Positions 11,727 through 23,765 of a stretch of DNA of 64,000 bases are shown in pieces. The DNA comes from an uncultured Gammaproteobacteria bacterium. GTDB taxonomy: Bacteria; Pseudomonadota; Gammaproteobacteria; UBA6429; Thiohalophilaceae. Positions within the stretch are counted from its first letter, which is position 1; each line of letters starts with the position of its first letter. The DNA lies in NCBI GenBank assembly GCA_913064945.1, contig CAJYAN010000006.1, positions 124,001 to 188,000 of the forward strand. The letters run 5' to 3'. A program made the position numbers and the translations under genes. A model generated the notes under the pieces. It saw only the letters and a list, made by a program, of their open reading frames with translations, did not search any database and was not told where the DNA came from.

Positions 11727-12200
11727 ATGACGGACGGTTCATTAAAAATCAATAAAACACCGCATCAGGTCCGCCTTTGGGTCCATCCCGAGGGATTAGT
11801 AACAGGCTCTCTTTTTCTACGCCACGAGCAAACAGGTCTACCACCAACTGAGTCGGCTTACGAGGTCATTAATCAGGCCGATCCCTTCGTCGTACTCAAA
11901 CGAGAGCAAACGGACGACGTCCGCTTTTATAATCGAAACTCGATAATCCGGGTCGAATATGCGGCAGAGAGTTTTCACATCGAAGACAAGGCGACAACGC
12001 TACACTGTCGTTTGATGATGATGGATGGTTCGATCCTGGAAGGGGCAATATCTGAAATCCTGCCTGCGGATCAATCGCGTCTGTATGACTACCTCAACAA
12101 AAACAATGTACGTTTTATTCGGCTCCACCTGAATGAAAAAGAAATCTGTCTGGTCAATAAATCCTACATCATCCAGGTATCACCACTGGCTAATGACTAA
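11727..12200 (+). CDS. Conserved hypothetical protein, first gene of kinase/PilT-like run
   Basis: A 157 aa soluble protein with no signal peptide. Two similar beta-rich halves are visible: one around VRLWVHPEGLVTGSLFL through DPFVVLKRE, and one around LHCRLMMMDGSILEGAISEILP through VRFIRLHLNEKEICLVNKSYIIQV. The pattern of a short strand pair, a loop, then FV/FI plus VNKSxII resembles the small DUF6812-type domain, function unknown. It lies 36 bases before the HEAT/kinase gene and is presumably part of that operon. It could be an adaptor or ligand-binding partner, which is inference. Confidence 0.75.
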   Translation: MTDGSLKINKTPHQVRLWVHPEGLVTGSLFLRHEQTGLPPTESAYEVINQADPFVVLKREQTDDVRFYNRNSIIRVEYAAESFHIEDKATTLHCRLMMMDGSILEGAISEILPADQSRLYDYLNKNNVRFIRLHLNEKEICLVNKSYIIQVSPLAND

Positions 12201-12236
12201 CTTGAGTAAAAATCAACAGATAATGAAAAGGTTGTC

Positions 12237-14630
12237 ATGAGTCTGCTCAAAGGTTTTAAGGCCAACAAAGCGATAAATGTCCTGCTGGAATCCAGTTCCG
12301 TGCATACGCCGGAATGTCGGGATGCTGTCAGTACTATAAAAAAAATTGGCCCCTCCGCCATAAACAAACTCATCGATAACCTTGCCGAAGCGCCCAGGGG
12401 ATCGGCAGTAGAAGAACTGCTCGTCGATTTACTCAATGACAAAACGCTAAGCATTTACATAGACGGGCTCACTGACCCTGATAAAAATGTCGTCGCCGGG
12501 ATAATGCGTATTCTGGCCACCGCTAATGGTTATGACGCCAACCGACTTTATGAATTGTTCGACGACCCTGAAATCCCAAAGAATGTTCTCGTACAGATAC
12601 TGCTGAGTAAGAAAAAATCACTAAAGGCCAATACTTTACTTGGCATGCTGGAAAAGGTATCGAAAAATGTCCGCCAGCTACTCTTTCGTGTCCTTGAAGA
12701 AATTGCCACCGAGGACTCACTACCACATTTGCTCAAATATATTAATAATGATGATCCCTCCGTACGGCTACATATTATTCGCACCATGGGACGCTTTTCC
12801 CACCCCAGGGCCGGCGAAGCATTGGTCAGCGCATTAAAAGATTCACATAAATTAATTCGTCAATCAGCCCTCGAAGGGCTAACGCATAGCAAGGCAGAAG
12901 TTTCACCTCGACATATTACAGCACTGCTACGCGATCCCGATCTTACTGTACAGTCCAAGGCCATTGAGGCACTTATCCAGCGCCGTCACCCTGAAACGAT
13001 CAAGTACCTTATCGATATTCTACAGGATGAGTCTGAATATGTGCGTCGTGCCGCTGTTGAAGTACTAAATGAAGTCGGCGACACCGGTGCCATTAAAGAC
13101 CTCTTGACCGCCATGAAAGATAAGGACTGGTGGGTCAAGGTCCGTGCCGCCGATGCACTCGGTTCCATTGGCGGACCAAAAGTGGTAGAGGCAGTTCTCT
13201 CCTTAATCAAAGATAAGGACGAATTTCTACGCCGTTCTGCCATCGAAATACTCAATGCCATTAAAGACGAACGCGCCTATGATTACCTGGTCGAGGCCTT
13301 AAGTGATTCTGACTGGTGGGTTCGTGAACGCGCCGCTGATGCCCTCGCAAGCCTCGGTGATAAGCGTGCCATAGGACCACTCATCGAACTCATTAAATCC
13401 CATCCGGAATCATGCAGCGTCGCCGTTCAGGCCGTTATACAGCTGGATGATAAAAATGCGATACGTCCCTTACTCGATCAACTACAGAGTGCTGACCCCT
13501 CTGCACAAAAAGATATTCTCAATGCCCTTGGCTCTCTGGCGGATGACAGTCATCAAAGTTCAATAGAAGGTGCAGTAACACAGTTAATACAAACAACTAA
13601 AAATGAAGATGTGCGAGAAGCGGCTGAGGCAACCATGCAGACAATGATTGCCAATATCCATCCGAGTCAGCAATCACAACATAATGAGCAGCCTTCTATC
13701 AGCGAAAGCAATGATGAAATGATGCTCGACCTTTCTGGAAATGTTAAATCCAATACAACCCAGCACGAAGTCACCTTAATTGACCCTGAAGCACTGACAG
13801 CAGGAGAAATACTTGCCGGGCGATATCGTATTATAAAGAAAGTTGGCAAGGGTGCCTTCGGAGTTGTGCTGCTTGTAGAAGATCAGATGGTTAATGAAGA
13901 AATTATTCTTAAATTTCTTAACCCTCATATGGCCTCAGATGAAAGTGTTATTAAGCGGTTTATACACGAACTTCGTTATGCACGTCGGATTACTCATGAA
14001 AATGTGATTCGTATTTATGACTTTATTACCTTTGGACGTTCAAGTGCAATATCCATGGAATACTTTAAGAGTCATTCCCTGTCCTATGAGATGCACAGCA
14101 ATAAGTCCTGGAATTTAAAACGTGCAATAAAAATTTTTATTGAAATTTGTAAGGGATTACGTGTCGCCCATTCTGTTGATGTTGTCCATCGTGATATTAA
14201 GCCAGCAAATATCCTCATTGGCCCCAATGATGTTGTCAAGGTGGTTGATTTTGGACTTGCCGCCGCAGCCTCACAAACCGACTCCCGCATTACGAAGAGT
14301 GGTTTGCTTGTAGGTACCCCTACCTATATGGCCCCTGAGCAAATACGCGCCAAAAAGATCGATAGCCGTACAGACATCTACAGTATGGGCGTAATGATGT
14401 ATGAATTATTTACTGACAGTCCGCCCTATAAAGGCGAAGATCATATGGCCACTCTGTTCCAGCATATTGAAGGTAAAGCAATCCCAGCCAATGAGAAAAA
14501 TCCCAAAATCACTGCGGCACTCAATATTATTATAATGAAGGCGATGGCCAAAAAACCGGAAGACCGTTATCAAAAAGTCGAAGACCTTGAAAAGGACTTA
14601 CAGGCACTATTTGACAGTGGAGGTGATTAA
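12237..14630 (+). CDS. HEAT-repeat protein fused to Hanks-type Ser/Thr protein kinase
   Basis: A 797 aa soluble protein. Residues about 1-450 are a run of HEAT/PBS-lyase-like repeats, seen in VRRAAVEVLNEVGDTGAI and in WWVKVRAADALGSIGG and its near copy WWVRERAADALASLGD. After a polar linker the kinase begins near residue 523: glycine loop GKGAFGVV, Lys559 in ILKFL, HRDIKPANIL (His651), DFGL (Asp671) and the APEQ motif near 699, so all catalytic residues are present. There is no transmembrane segment, unlike most bacterial PASTA kinases. AAAGG precedes the ATG by five bases. The repeats are probably the substrate or partner surface; the next genes encode PilU/PilT-like ATPases and an FHA protein that would read phosphothreonine. 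Confidence 0.92.
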   Translation: MSLLKGFKANKAINVLLESSSVHTPECRDAVSTIKKIGPSAINKLIDNLAEAPRGSAVEELLVDLLNDKTLSIYIDGLTDPDKNVVAGIMRILATANGYDANRLYELFDDPEIPKNVLVQILLSKKKSLKANTLLGMLEKVSKNVRQLLFRVLEEIATEDSLPHLLKYINNDDPSVRLHIIRTMGRFSHPRAGEALVSALKDSHKLIRQSALEGLTHSKAEVSPRHITALLRDPDLTVQSKAIEALIQRRHPETIKYLIDILQDESEYVRRAAVEVLNEVGDTGAIKDLLTAMKDKDWWVKVRAADALGSIGGPKVVEAVLSLIKDKDEFLRRSAIEILNAIKDERAYDYLVEALSDSDWWVRERAADALASLGDKRAIGPLIELIKSHPESCSVAVQAVIQLDDKNAIRPLLDQLQSADPSAQKDILNALGSLADDSHQSSIEGAVTQLIQTTKNEDVREAAEATMQTMIANIHPSQQSQHNEQPSISESNDEMMLDLSGNVKSNTTQHEVTLIDPEALTAGEILAGRYRIIKKVGKGAFGVVLLVEDQMVNEEIILKFLNPHMASDESVIKRFIHELRYARRITHENVIRIYDFITFGRSSAISMEYFKSHSLSYEMHSNKSWNLKRAIKIFIEICKGLRVAHSVDVVHRDIKPANILIGPNDVVKVVDFGLAAAASQTDSRITKSGLLVGTPTYMAPEQIRAKKIDSRTDIYSMGVMMYELFTDSPPYKGEDHMATLFQHIEGKAIPANEKNPKITAALNIIIMKAMAKKPEDRYQKVEDLEKDLQALFDSGGD

Positions 14631-15728
14631 GTGTCTGCTCGTATAAATGCATTTTTAAAACTTGCACGTGAGCAGGGTGCATCTGATATTCACCTGTCAG
14701 TCGGTATGCCCCCGCAAATTCGTATGCATGGCGAGCTAACCACTATCAAATACCGTGAGCTCAATAAAACTGAGTTGGAAGACTTACTAAAAGAGATCCT
14801 CTCTGCAGAGGAACTAAATAAGTTCAACAATGGAGAAGATCTAGATATTTCATATGATGACGTGGAAGTCGGACGCTTCCGTGTCAATTTATTTCGCAAG
14901 CTGACGGGGCCCGGTGCTGCCTTTCGCGCAATCGCACCTAGAATACCCTCATTAAAAGATTTATTACTGCCACCCGTTGTGGAAAAGTTACTCTCCTATC
15001 ACCAGGGGCTGATACTTGTTACCGGAGCAACCGGCACAGGCAAGACAACAACACTTGCAGCGATGATTGATTATATCAATAGTCAACGAAAACTTAATAT
15101 TATTACACTCGAAGACCCGATAGAGTTTATTCACAAAAGCAAAGAATCGCTTATTATTCAACGCGGTGTCGGTACACATGTCCGTAGTTTTGCCGAGGGC
15201 TTACGAGCTGCACTACGTGAGGACCCTGATGTCATTCTGGTTGGCGAATTACGTGACCCTGAGACTATTTCGATGGCGATGACAGCCGCTGAGACAGGTC
15301 ACCTTGTCCTCGGTACACTACATACGAGTTCAGCAGTAAAAACACTAGATAGGATCATTGATGCAATGCCAACAGTGCAGAAGCCATTGGCCTCGATGTT
15401 TCTCGCCCAGCATTTGAAAGGTGTCATAAGCCAGAAGCTGGTCCGCTCAGTCGATGGTCGTTCTCGTCGAGCCATGGTTGAGGTCATGCTCAATACCTCC
15501 AGCATTGCAAACCTAATCCTCAATAAAAAAATATTTCAAATTCCCTCCGTATTACAAACCAGCCGGGATATAGGGATGCAGCTAATGGACCAGGCACTCC
15601 TGTCCGCTATTGAACAAAAGTTGATTGACCCTGATGATGCTTACATTCACGCTACGGAGAAGAAGCTCTTCCAGCGTTTTGTTACCAACCCTGATCTTCT
15701 TCCACAAATTAATCTGGCTGTGAGTTAG
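14631..15728 (+). CDS. PilU-like twitching motility ATPase paralogue
   Basis: Type II/IV secretion superfamily ATPase of 365 aa. Start is GTG, directly after the kinase stop, with GGAGG inside the end of the kinase gene. It shows the Walker A loop GATGTGKTT (residues 132-140), Asp box (TLEDPIEF), Walker B-type LREDPDVILVGELRDPET and the His box TLHTSSA. The C-terminus (DIGMQLMDQALL) resembles PilU (GMQTFDQAL), the accessory retraction ATPase, rather than PilT. No pilus structural genes are nearby, so a dedicated pilus or another filament/envelope machine is possible. Confidence 0.9.
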   Translation: MSARINAFLKLAREQGASDIHLSVGMPPQIRMHGELTTIKYRELNKTELEDLLKEILSAEELNKFNNGEDLDISYDDVEVGRFRVNLFRKLTGPGAAFRAIAPRIPSLKDLLLPPVVEKLLSYHQGLILVTGATGTGKTTTLAAMIDYINSQRKLNIITLEDPIEFIHKSKESLIIQRGVGTHVRSFAEGLRAALREDPDVILVGELRDPETISMAMTAAETGHLVLGTLHTSSAVKTLDRIIDAMPTVQKPLASMFLAQHLKGVISQKLVRSVDGRSRRAMVEVMLNTSSIANLILNKKIFQIPSVLQTSRDIGMQLMDQALLSAIEQKLIDPDDAYIHATEKKLFQRFVTNPDLLPQINLAVS

Positions 15729-15736
15729 CGTTTGTT

Positions 15737-16816
15737 ATGGCAAGAATAGATGTTTTTCTCGATCTGGTCGTCAAACAGGGTGGTTCCGATCTACACCTGG
15801 TGGCCGGTAACCCTCCGCGCATCCGTCTGAATGGGGACAGCTATACTGTAAAATATCGCGAGTTAGGCACCAAAGAGACACAGGAGTTAATTGATGAAAT
15901 AACTCCTGGCCATGTTTTAGAATATTTTGAAGAAGCTGGCAATGCTGACTTTGCTTATGAACTGGAAGGAATCTCACGATTTCGCGTTAATATTTTTAAG
16001 CACCAGGGTGGCATGGGAGCTATATTAAGAGCAATCCCAACAGATATAAAATCTATGCAGCAACTTGGTCTGCCTCCCATTTTAAAAAATCTTTCCCGTC
16101 AGCGAAAAGGTCTAATCCTGATTACCGGTCCGACTGGTTCCGGTAAGTCTACGACCCTGGCGGCGGTAGTTGATTCAATAAACCAGGAGCGCAAGGGGCA
16201 CATTATTACGATTGAGGACCCCGTTGAGTTTATCCACAGGAATAAGAACTGTCTCGTAAGTCAGCGTGAAGTTGGCTATCACACAAAAACATTCTCCCAG
16301 GCATTACACTCTGCCATGCGCGAAGACCCGGATGTAATTCTTGTTGGTGAAATGCGTGACCTGGAAACAGTCCATCTTGCCCTGACAGCTGCAGAAATGG
16401 GCGTTCTTGTCATTGCGACTCTACACACAAATAGTGCGTCAGCCTCGGTCGATCGCATTATTAATGTCTTTCCGCCTGGGGAAGAGCCCTTTGTCCGTAC
16501 AATGTTATCGACATCCCTATGCGGTATTATTTCGCAACAGCTAATTAGGCGGGCAGACGGAAAGGGACGCATTGCGGCGTTAGAAATTATGGTGAACAGT
16601 TCCGCAGTATCAAATGCAATACGTGAAGGCAAAACAGATCAATTAGAAAATATAATTCAGGGAGGTGGCATGCAAGGCATGCAACTAATGGACACCGCTC
16701 TGCTTCGCCTGGTCGATGCAAAAATGATTTCTGGCGATCAAGCTTACTTACATTGCAAAAATAAGTCACAGTTTGCACATCTACGTGATGACCTTGAAAT
16801 ATCAGGTGAGGCATAA
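15737..16816 (+). CDS. PilT-like twitching motility ATPase paralogue
   Basis: 359 aa hexameric-type ATPase closely related to the preceding protein. Walker A is GPTGSGKST (131-139); TIEDPVEF, MREDPDVILVGEMRDLET and TLHTNSA follow. The C-terminal VSNAIREGKTDQL resembles the AIRNLIRE-type motif that is needed for PilT retraction, so this copy is the PilT-like partner of the PilU-like copy. The eight-base gap and parallel domain order suggest an ancient tandem duplication. Cytoplasmic; expected to act on an inner-membrane platform protein that is not encoded in this window. Confidence 0.9.
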   Translation: MARIDVFLDLVVKQGGSDLHLVAGNPPRIRLNGDSYTVKYRELGTKETQELIDEITPGHVLEYFEEAGNADFAYELEGISRFRVNIFKHQGGMGAILRAIPTDIKSMQQLGLPPILKNLSRQRKGLILITGPTGSGKSTTLAAVVDSINQERKGHIITIEDPVEFIHRNKNCLVSQREVGYHTKTFSQALHSAMREDPDVILVGEMRDLETVHLALTAAEMGVLVIATLHTNSASASVDRIINVFPPGEEPFVRTMLSTSLCGIISQQLIRRADGKGRIAALEIMVNSSAVSNAIREGKTDQLENIIQGGGMQGMQLMDTALLRLVDAKMISGDQAYLHCKNKSQFAHLRDDLEISGEA

Positions 16817-16855
16817 GTCAACGGATGATAAATATCATCAGCATAGAGGTATAAA

Positions 16856-17524
16856 ATGTCAAAGTTAATTTTAACATTGGATGGTACCGTAATACGGGAA
16901 TTTAAAATCGATAAAGATTCGATTAGTATTGGGCGTAAACATGGTAACGATGTACAGCTTAATGATTTAACTGTGAGTGGTCGCCATGCTCTCGTCAGTA
17001 CAATGGGGGAGAACACTTATATCGATGACCTCGGTAGCACCAATGGTACTTTGCTTAACGGTGCGCGAGTTTCAAAATCGATTCTTAAACATGGCGATAC
17101 AATTCAAACCGGTAATTATCAATTTACCTATTTCCGCGAAGATACCGAGGAGTTTGAACCGACGATGTTTCTGCGTGCAGAAATTGAAGACACTCAGGTT
17201 ATTAGCGGCGCATTTTCACCAGGCAACGATACCCGCGGACAGCCTCTCGCCGGGGTCAGGATCATTAATGGACCATTGGCAAAGAAGGTACTTGAATTGC
17301 GTAAGTCATTCAATACGCTTGGCTTCAATGGGGTCAAGCTTGCAGTGATTACTCGTAATAACGATGGATACACCATTGCCGCTCTAAAGACCAGCAAAAA
17401 TCGTCGTACCAATGACTCTCCTTCCGTTAATGGCAAGCCCATCGCAACCGAACCTAGCAGGTTGAACGATCATGATATGCTTGAATTGGCTGGTACTCAG
17501 ATGGAGTTCTTTTATTTTAAATAA
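16856..17524 (+). CDS. FHA-domain protein with a second, degenerate FHA-like half
   Basis: A 222 aa soluble protein. Residues about 20-90 form a clear forkhead-associated domain that binds phosphothreonine: SIGRKHGNDVQL, VSGRHALV, STNGTLLNG. The second half (LGFNGVKLAVITRNNDGYTI to SVNGKPI and LNDHDMLELAG) has a similar strand pattern but lacks the conserved Arg and Ser-x-x-His residues, so it is probably a non-binding repeat. AGAGGT precedes the ATG. It ends the kinase operon and its 3' end overlaps the convergent RND gene by eight bases. Confidence 0.9.
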   Translation: MSKLILTLDGTVIREFKIDKDSISIGRKHGNDVQLNDLTVSGRHALVSTMGENTYIDDLGSTNGTLLNGARVSKSILKHGDTIQTGNYQFTYFREDTEEFEPTMFLRAEIEDTQVISGAFSPGNDTRGQPLAGVRIINGPLAKKVLELRKSFNTLGFNGVKLAVITRNNDGYTIAALKTSKNRRTNDSPSVNGKPIATEPSRLNDHDMLELAGTQMEFFYFK

Positions 17525-22517: not shown

Positions 22518-23765
22518 TTAACCGCTGACATGCGAAGATTTTAATTTTGGTTTGTACTTCAAAATCTTACCAAACTCACTCGCTTCATCATCACCAATGT
22601 TAACATGGTGTGCTTCAGTAACATATGTAAAGGAGTAACTACCAATTTTAAAGGTTACCCCATCACGTAGTTGTTGCAGATCAACTTGATCATCTAAAAT
22701 ATAGGTGCCATTGGTGCTATTTAGATCACGTAGAAATGAGTTAGCATTATTAGTAAATATTTGTGCGTGGTAACGACTGACTAATTTGTCATCGACGGCT
22801 ATATCATTATCTGCTTTACGACCAATATTCAAAAATTCTTTGTCTAGCGGAAATTTACCAATAATCTTGTCATCGTGTCGCATAATAATTTTGGCTACTT
22901 TTATTTCAGCTGTCGATGATAAAGTTTGATTGCGCGATGAGGTATATTTTTGTGCATACGGCACCCACTGTAATTCATCAACGGCCGTCGCAATCGTTGA
23001 TTCTGTAATTGTTTTTTGTTTTTCTACAAACGCTGTAGTCAGGGCATAGTCGCATAGGATATTAATCAAACGCGGCCGCCCGCCGGAATATTCATGAATA
23101 AGTGGTATTGCACGCGCCGTAAATGTGTCGGCACTTGAGCAACCAGCCACTCTCATACGGTGTTGAATATAAGCCTGCGTCTCTTCTACCGTTAACGCAT
23201 TTATATGGAACCGCAGGCGTACGCGTTGCATCAGATTTTCCATTTCAGGCGAATCCAGGACGTCATTCAATTCTGGCTGGCCAAGCAGAATAACATTGAG
23301 AAGCTTTTTGTTATTGCGTTCGAGATCAGACAATAAACGGATTTCTTCAAGCACCCGTTTAGTTAGGTTCTGCGCTTCATCGACAATAAGCAGAACTTTC
23401 TTACCCTGATTGTTCTGCTCAATAAAAAATCTGCATAGTTCCTCGAGCAAGGCAACTTTATCCAGGTTATACGGCTGATAACCAAATTCGACGAGAACCG
23501 CCTGTAGAAATTCATTTTCAGTTAATTGTGTTTGATGAATCTTGGCAACAACAATCTCATCAGGCATTCGCCCCACGGCATCCTGTATCAGTGTCGTTTT
23601 TCCAGAACCAATTTCTCCAGTAAATATGACAAAGCTATCCTGAATATGGGTCGCATAATCTATGTAGGCTTTCACACGGGCATGCGATTCACTCAGATAG
23701 AGAAATCTTGGATCAGAAGTCAGTCTAAAAGGTTGGTCCGTTAACCCGAAGTGCTCCAAATACAT
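22518..23765 (-). CDS. ExeA/GspA-type AAA ATPase fused to FHA domain
   Basis: 415 aa protein starting MYLEHFGLTDQPFRLTSDPRF, the hallmark N-terminus of the ExeA/general secretion ATPase family. Walker A is GEIGSGKTT (50-58), Walker B LLIVDEAQNL, followed by LLSDLERNNKKLLNVILLGQPEL and the sensor-like GGRPRLINILCDYAL. After residue about 290 an FHA domain follows: LNIGRKADNDIAVDD, VSRYHAQIF, LNSTNGTYI. In Aeromonas, ExeA has a peptidoglycan-binding domain and a membrane segment instead and places the secretin; here FHA replaces them. It could bind a phosphothreonine made by the kinase encoded at 12.2-14.6 kb. Confidence 0.92.
   Translation of the reverse strand: MYLEHFGLTDQPFRLTSDPRFLYLSESHARVKAYIDYATHIQDSFVIFTGEIGSGKTTLIQDAVGRMPDEIVVAKIHQTQLTENEFLQAVLVEFGYQPYNLDKVALLEELCRFFIEQNNQGKKVLLIVDEAQNLTKRVLEEIRLLSDLERNNKKLLNVILLGQPELNDVLDSPEMENLMQRVRLRFHINALTVEETQAYIQHRMRVAGCSSADTFTARAIPLIHEYSGGRPRLINILCDYALTTAFVEKQKTITESTIATAVDELQWVPYAQKYTSSRNQTLSSTAEIKVAKIIMRHDDKIIGKFPLDKEFLNIGRKADNDIAVDDKLVSRYHAQIFTNNANSFLRDLNSTNGTYILDDQVDLQQLRDGVTFKIGSYSFTYVTEAHHVNIGDDEASEFGKILKYKPKLKSSHVSG

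Follow-up and report, generated by a model that had tools for sequence, protein, structure and literature searches.

A HEAT-repeat Ser/Thr kinase inherited together with two PilT-side ATPases suggests phosphorylation control of pilus retraction in some Gammaproteobacteria

In the stretch of DNA analysed here (the window: 64,000 nucleotides of contig CAJYAN010000006.1 from an uncultured gammaproteobacterium of the Thiohalophilaceae), a gene for a Hanks-type Ser/Thr kinase with HEAT repeats (g2) is followed directly by genes for two ATPases of the PilT/PilU family (g3 and g4), and these three genes are inherited as one block. They lie within a unit of five + strand genes (g1 to g5, window 11727-17524), which also encodes a small protein (g1) and a protein with an FHA domain (g5). 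The findings suggest protein phosphorylation as a means by which some bacteria control the retraction of their pili. We give roughly even odds (a probability of about 0.5) to the reading that g3 and g4 form a second, accessory pair of retraction motors for the type IVa pilus, under a Ser/Thr phosphorylation circuit.

Inheritance of the kinase and motors

With g3 as query, a scan of genome contigs found 386 relatives; the 80 best are used here as loci L041-L120, divided into a close clade (L041-L074, 34 loci) and a far clade (L075-L120, 46 loci). The kinase gene lies upstream of g3 in 79 of the 80, the exception (L108) beginning 278 bases before g3, and g4 follows g3 in 77, two of these g4 genes being partial; in the other three (L071, L105 and L118) the locus runs into a contig edge. 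Counts from a g4 neighbour query (34/34 and 46/46 in these clades, 20/20 in the class-sample loci described below) are too high, since that query matches g3 as well, and are not used here.

The association was also found in an even sample of 274 Gammaproteobacteria genomes (the class sample), where the kinase profile (threshold E<=1e-150, counted by hand) and the g3 profile each match 35 genomes. Both match in 34, with the two genes side by side in 32 of these and split over contigs in two; the probability of such overlap by chance is about 4e-41, a figure that ignores relatedness. By their printed labels, the 35 g3 carriers are spread over 22 families. For g4, the profile gave 20 matches in a subset of 162 genomes (556-655 bits), all in carriers, the best non-carrier reaching 473 bits; the 21st carrier of this subset, G166, has a partial g4 (442 bits). 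Chance clustering in a single strain, which the first-pass annotation of the window had named as the outcome that would count against its proposal, is thus ruled out by the co-occurrence of kinase, g3, g4 and g1 in the class sample and the 80 related loci, kinase and g3 being found together in 34 of 274 genomes and the core in the related loci.

The outer genes of the unit are less constant. We found g5 in 32/34 close-clade loci, 0/46 far-clade loci and 10/20 loci drawn from the class sample (L151-L170), and g1 in 25/34, 1/46 and 17/20, respectively (L152/L066 and L154/L058 are apparently the same contigs, so the locus sets are not to be added). The five genes are therefore not the fixed set as which they were first presented: the constant core is the kinase with the two motors, and the small protein and the FHA reader vary. 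Within the family to which the window belongs, g3 is found at E<1e-190 in 25 of 37 genomes. In two of the 12 genomes without such a match, G004 and G009, short contigs nevertheless carry g5. The 100% complete genome G001 lacks kinase and g3 and keeps two PilT-family genes and PilQ. These losses within the family indicate that the unit is accessory. A phylum sample of 299 genomes gives nothing firm on other classes; the window's own genome was the sole match at E<=1e-120, and the 20 listed non-matching genomes all belong to the same class.

The two motor ATPases

The first-pass annotation of two PilT/PilU-type ATPases is supported by profile and motifs, which place g3 and g4 as members of this family (TIGR01420: 420.1 bits for g3 and 448.1 for g4, cut-off 319.1). 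Motifs were counted in full-length open reading frames only (75 for g3, 75 for g4, 65 for g2 and 30 for g5). The Walker A, Walker B/Glu and His box patterns are each present in 75/75 homologues of g3, and Walker A, Walker B and His box in 75/75, 72/75 and 75/75 homologues of g4. The AIRNLIRE-type pattern occurs in 0/75 g3 homologues, and an altered, AIRNLIRE-like form occurs in 72/75 g4 homologues.

The first of the two motors had been called PilU-like; by tree and identity it belongs to the PilT side and is not a PilU by descent. In a midpoint-rooted tree of 80 proteins, 17 g3 and 17 g4 sequences (from the window and 16 of the 80 related loci) form sister clades (98/86) on the PilT side; two further clades, each at 100/100, contain canonical PilT and the PilU side. 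The remaining 46 proteins are the PilT-family open reading frames of 20 canonical loci, “canonical PilT” being those with an AIRNLIRE (19) or AIRSLIRE (1) motif and “PilU side” all others. The window g3 is 42-46% identical to the 20 canonical PilT proteins and 34-39% to the 26 PilU-side proteins; the corresponding values for g4 are 47-51% and 34-43%. Tree and identities thus rule out g3 as a PilU. A canonical PilT is likewise ruled out for both, with the motif altered in g4 and missing from g3 and canonical PilT standing apart at 100/100. Judged by eye, the branching order of the loci is much alike in the g3 and g4 clades, as would be expected if both genes had travelled together.

Separately, six of the 20 fetched loci (L173, L178, L179, L181, L183 and L184) have, after canonical pilT-pilU, a third gene of the PilT family, which falls on the PilU side of the tree.

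Kinase, FHA protein and small protein

The complete Hanks-type kinase with HEAT repeats described at first pass was recovered in g2 (Pfam PF00069 at 3.7e-51, HEAT_2 at 2.2e-57). HRDxKPxN and DFG are present in 65/65 full-length homologues and the glycine loop in 64/65, and by these motifs g2 is classed as a Hanks-type Ser/Thr kinase. Against PADLOC, g2 has 37 matches, of which the 25 listed cover the kinase domain or the HEAT repeats, that is, they are domain-level. In this comparison, which covers anti-phage kinase systems (PD-T4-6 and others), g1 and g5 gave no match and g3 and g4 matched only part of mad8.

The FHA protein g5 had been annotated as a double FHA protein. This holds for its first domain, FHA1, which is intact (Pfam FHA, 3.4e-21), and not for the second, which is only degenerate and FHA-like: it has no Pfam match at E<=0.001, an FHA stretch emerging only at a limit of 10, and appears as a predicted beta-sandwich in the structure model. 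In our own reading of the alignment this second domain seems to lack the residues that bind phosphothreonine. The model (predicted local distance difference test, pLDDT, 75; predicted template modelling score, pTM, 0.43) shows residues 98-123 as disordered (pLDDT<50), its pTM being too low to place the two domains relative to each other. Residues R27, S41, R43, H44 and N63 of g5 are invariant across the 30 aligned sequences (alignment A6); we take these to be the phosphothreonine-binding positions of an FHA domain, and by sequence FHA1 has the features of a phosphothreonine reader. The structures nearest to it include GarA, OdhI and DgcB.

In the linker between the two domains, P102, T103, M104, F105, A108, E109 and T113 are invariant in the same 30 sequences, and the pattern with T103 (in EPTMF) and T113 is kept in 30/30 full-length homologues. 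Letters so conserved in a disordered stretch beside an FHA domain suggest a phosphosite, with the EPTMF threonine as the candidate.

The same genome holds a separate operon (L202:7935-12377, contig C9) encoding a CHASE2 Ser/Thr kinase, a PP2C phosphatase, a two-domain FHA protein and a single FHA protein. Both FHA proteins have a threonine at a like place (ERT, ETT), and the single FHA protein ends in ETTAIYLPD.

The small protein g1 matches Pfam DUF6812 at E 0.0012 (19.2 bits, below the cut-off of 27.1), and its homologue in L169 does so at 27.2 bits. The g1 structure model (pLDDT 82.7) found no match at E<=0.001 in a fold search with Foldseek. In a second look with either half of the protein the best matches were Hfq chains, with weak Z scores of 3.4-3.7, and the predicted Sm-like fold is thus a lead. 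By sequence, a solved relative was not found, the single match having E 0.94. The g1 profile matches 28 of the 274 class-sample genomes, all of them g3 carriers (chance probability about 5e-32, again ignoring relatedness). For L051, the g1 reading was taken with a stop in frame and was left out of alignment A7.

Locus layout and pilus context

The tight, one-directional arrangement with gaps of 0-40 bases reported at first pass is confirmed, the intergenic gaps being 36, 0, 8 and 39 bases (Table 1). With the stop codon of g2 touching the start codon of g3, no room is left between the two genes for a terminator or promoter. A scan for such sites was uninformative (13 promoter-like sites against a shuffled mean of 12.9, and eight terminator-like sites against 5.7). 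An NlpC/P60 gene lies 5' of g1 on the same strand; 3' of g5 is a convergent gene, named RND transporter-like by eye, which overlaps g5 by eight bases.

Table 1. Features of the five-gene unit (window coordinates).
Feature	Position	Strand	Description
g1	11727..12200	+	157 amino acids; small protein; weak DUF6812; predicted tandem Sm-like barrels
g2	12237..14630	+	797 amino acids; HEAT repeats and Hanks-type Ser/Thr kinase domain (about residues 523-792)
g2/g3 junction	14619..14633	+	Shine-Dalgarno-like GGAGGTGA in last g2 codons; TAA abuts GTG (TAAGTG)
g3	14631..15728	+	365 amino acids; PilT-side ATPase paralogue without AIRNLIRE motif
g4	15737..16816	+	359 amino acids; PilT-side ATPase paralogue with AIRNLIRE-like motif
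g5	16856..17524	+	222 amino acids; intact FHA, disordered linker, second degenerate FHA-like domain
FHA1 domain of g5	16862..17134	+	residues 3-93 in model; Pfam

No pilin, platform or secretin gene was seen when the open reading frames of the first 34 kb of the window were read by eye (at least 120 amino acids throughout and at least 80 at 8-22 kb), in agreement with the first-pass annotation, which had also placed the motors outside a standard type IV pilus locus. This placement stands, and a standard pilus locus is ruled out: the canonical genes sit elsewhere in the genome, as pilMNOPQ, pilBCD and canonical PilT/PilU (gene names partly by eye; the pilus and secretion genes of this genome were read by eye save for profile matches to the ATPases, PilM, PilQ and FHA).

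Across the class sample, at least four TIGR01420 matches at E<=1e-60 are present in 34 of the 35 carriers (G222 has three) against 32 of 239 non-carriers by our own count, with at most seven candidates scored per genome. The extra matches of the carriers indicate that g3 and g4 are additional to the canonical pair. PilQ is found at E<=1e-150 in 33/35 carriers and over its cut-off in 233/274 sampled genomes; PilM is found at E<=1e-20 in 31/35 carriers, over its cut-off in 30.

Other observations concern the surroundings. About 5 kb from the unit, an AAA ATPase fused to an FHA domain is encoded at window 22518-23765 (- strand), which we take to be of the ExeA/GspA type, and a similar gene (411 amino acids in L044) clusters among five related loci. 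A Tad-type ATPase (name by eye) with an N-terminal FHA domain is encoded elsewhere in the same genome (L205:5594-7246, contig C5). Neighbours in the far clade, read by eye, include a metG-like gene in 17/46 loci and another gene, perhaps mrp, in 25/46.

Phospho-signalling genes near the unit

Genes for further phospho-signalling and second-messenger proteins lie beside some copies, with domains confirmed on one example of each kind. A PP2C gene is near 7/34 close-clade, 0/46 far-clade and 7/20 class-sample loci, and a cyclase-FHA gene near 0/34, 1/46 and 5/20. An FHA-GAF-HD-GYP query scored over 45 bits in 19/34, 0/46 and 6/20 loci; of these, nine in the close clade and one in the class sample are weak matches between FHA domains, almost always within g5, and at >=500 bits the counts are 10/34, 0/46 and 5/20. 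As many loci are cut by contig ends, these neighbour counts are lower bounds. The reading of a phospho-controlled motor gains from the PP2C and FHA-fused second-messenger enzymes beside some copies.

A retropepsin-like aspartic protease gene follows g4 in three of the 20 class-sample loci (L160:9891-10556, L166 and L167), a call that Pfam supports for L160.

Discussion

If g3 and g4 are an accessory motor pair, the circuit could work as follows. The HEAT part of g2 would anchor the kinase or sense a signal, and the kinase would phosphorylate the EPTMF linker of g5 and perhaps also a motor. FHA1 of g5 might then engage its own linker, which would be the off state, or, in the on state, a motor or platform protein that carries the phosphate; rings of g3 and g4 would dock at PilC and alter the frequency or strength of pilus retraction, and PP2C would reset the switch. 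Where other families have FHA-fused cyclase or HD-GYP enzymes, these could relay the same signal to cyclic AMP (cAMP) or cyclic di-GMP. The action of the kinase on g5 or a motor, the reading by FHA1, the docking on the type IVa platform and the sign of the phosphorylation effect are all steps that we infer. A fuller version, which we regard as rather doubtful, is a phosphothreonine-gated gearbox: the HEAT kinase would switch a heteromeric PilT-derived pair, one member with an AIRNLIRE-like motif and the other lacking it, on and off the type IVa pilus, with the phosphothreonine linker of g5 as the clutch and branches to cAMP and cyclic di-GMP through the FHA-fused cyclase and HD-GYP enzymes.

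Several points weigh against an accessory retraction pair under phosphorylation control. Phosphorylation, the pilus served and retraction are themselves things that we infer. The far clade lacks g5 and has a single g1, yet keeps kinase and motors save in the contig-edge cases, so that the FHA protein is not indispensable. PP2C is near only a minority of loci. G189 has a kinase-like match with an internal stop and no g3, and G244 has g3 and g1 but no kinase match. (The match in G189, at C90:12167-14059, is possibly a decayed copy.) Four carriers, G071, G121, G278 and G307 (drafts of 160-300 contigs), have no PilM match, and in two of them, G071 and G307, the best PilQ match reaches only about 1e-52. 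Because PilQ is near-universal in the sample, co-occurrence of pilus and unit indicates compatibility rather than linkage. The window's own genome also has loci for a type II secretion system (T2SS), an MSHA-like pilus and a Tad system (read by eye), which the motors might serve.

These loci, together with the FHA-bearing Tad ATPase (likewise named by eye), favour a rival in which g3 and g4 drive a kinase-controlled retraction step in another type IV filament machine (MSHA-like, T2SS pseudopilus or Tad), as does the statement, in the accessible part of one source, that the Msh pilus of Vibrio cholerae requires PilT for its extension (PMC11656802). The presence of PilQ in 33/35 and PilM in 31/35 carriers speaks against it, with the reservation that these counts were made for type IVa only, and we consider this rival improbable. 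We rate as similarly improbable a role for g3 and g4 as a hexameric signalling scaffold that informs the kinase of pilus tension or of contact with a surface, FHA-cyclase and HD-GYP proteins being the outputs, and generates no force. That role would fit the fusion of FHA to second-messenger enzymes beside part of the copies, the missing AIRNLIRE motif in g3 (0/75) and a mention, in the same partly available source, of retraction ATPases as transducers of surface contact (PMC11656802); the Walker A, Walker B/Glu and His box kept in both proteins would, however, argue for ATP hydrolysis.

Finally, the unit might be an operon of convenience, its kinase and FHA protein having another target and its motors sharing no more than the transcript. 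The far clade lends this some weight, as the FHA protein and g1 were not found in L075-L120 (save g1 in one locus) and the motors are kept there. Yet of the 36 genomes with kinase or g3, over 22 families, just two (G189 and G244) have one without the other, and no g4-like gene was found in non-carriers among the 162 genomes, which makes this a very unlikely account.

Among known systems, the closest in logic is the PpkA-Fha pathway of the type VI secretion system (T6SS), with the Arn network of the archaellum second. According to the portion of the source available, PpkA phosphorylates TssL, which is bound by Fha (PMC3953482). As in the T6SS PpkA/PppA/Fha set, a Ser/Thr kinase and an FHA reader (and PP2C near some copies) are tied to ATPases of an envelope machine, whereas here the ATPases belong to the PilT family of motors and the kinase carries fused HEAT repeats. 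No type VI genes were seen by eye in the open reading frames near the unit, the rest of the genome not having been searched for them. For the archaellum, the accessible text describes the FHA proteins ArnA/ArnB, which repress archaellum expression, and the Ser/Thr kinases ArnC/ArnD, likewise FHA proteins and kinases acting on a type IV filament machine; unlike here, that text describes no kinase-linked motor gene (PMC4307647).

The nearest FHA structures offer a parallel for the linker. As far as the available part of the source goes, the FHA domains of GarA, OdhI and DgcB recognise a peptide of their own tail, which is N-terminal (PMC6733907). In g5 there is also a conserved threonine motif beside the FHA domain, but it lies C-terminal to FHA1, which starts at residue 3, and g5 bears an additional degenerate FHA-like domain. 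The motors share family membership and ATPase motifs with PilT/PilU and differ in forming clades of their own and in their fixed linkage to a HEAT kinase. Extra PilT paralogues are known, such as PilT2 in Neisseria (PMC10790696, seen in part).

Among the papers listed by searches of the open-access literature of PubMed Central (PMC), preprints not included, none describes this gene set as far as title and opening of the abstract tell. Control of pilus motors has been described, in the part of the source at hand, through cAMP, cyclic di-GMP, histidine kinases and partner proteins (PMC11656802). A conserved operon linking dedicated PilT paralogues with a Ser/Thr kinase, FHA readers and second-messenger enzymes would point to the first kinase-substrate pairs to examine, and would open to direct test the question of why retraction ATPases number more than two in many bacteria. 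If true, the gearbox would parallel the type VI PpkA-Fha pathway, with pilus retraction as its target.

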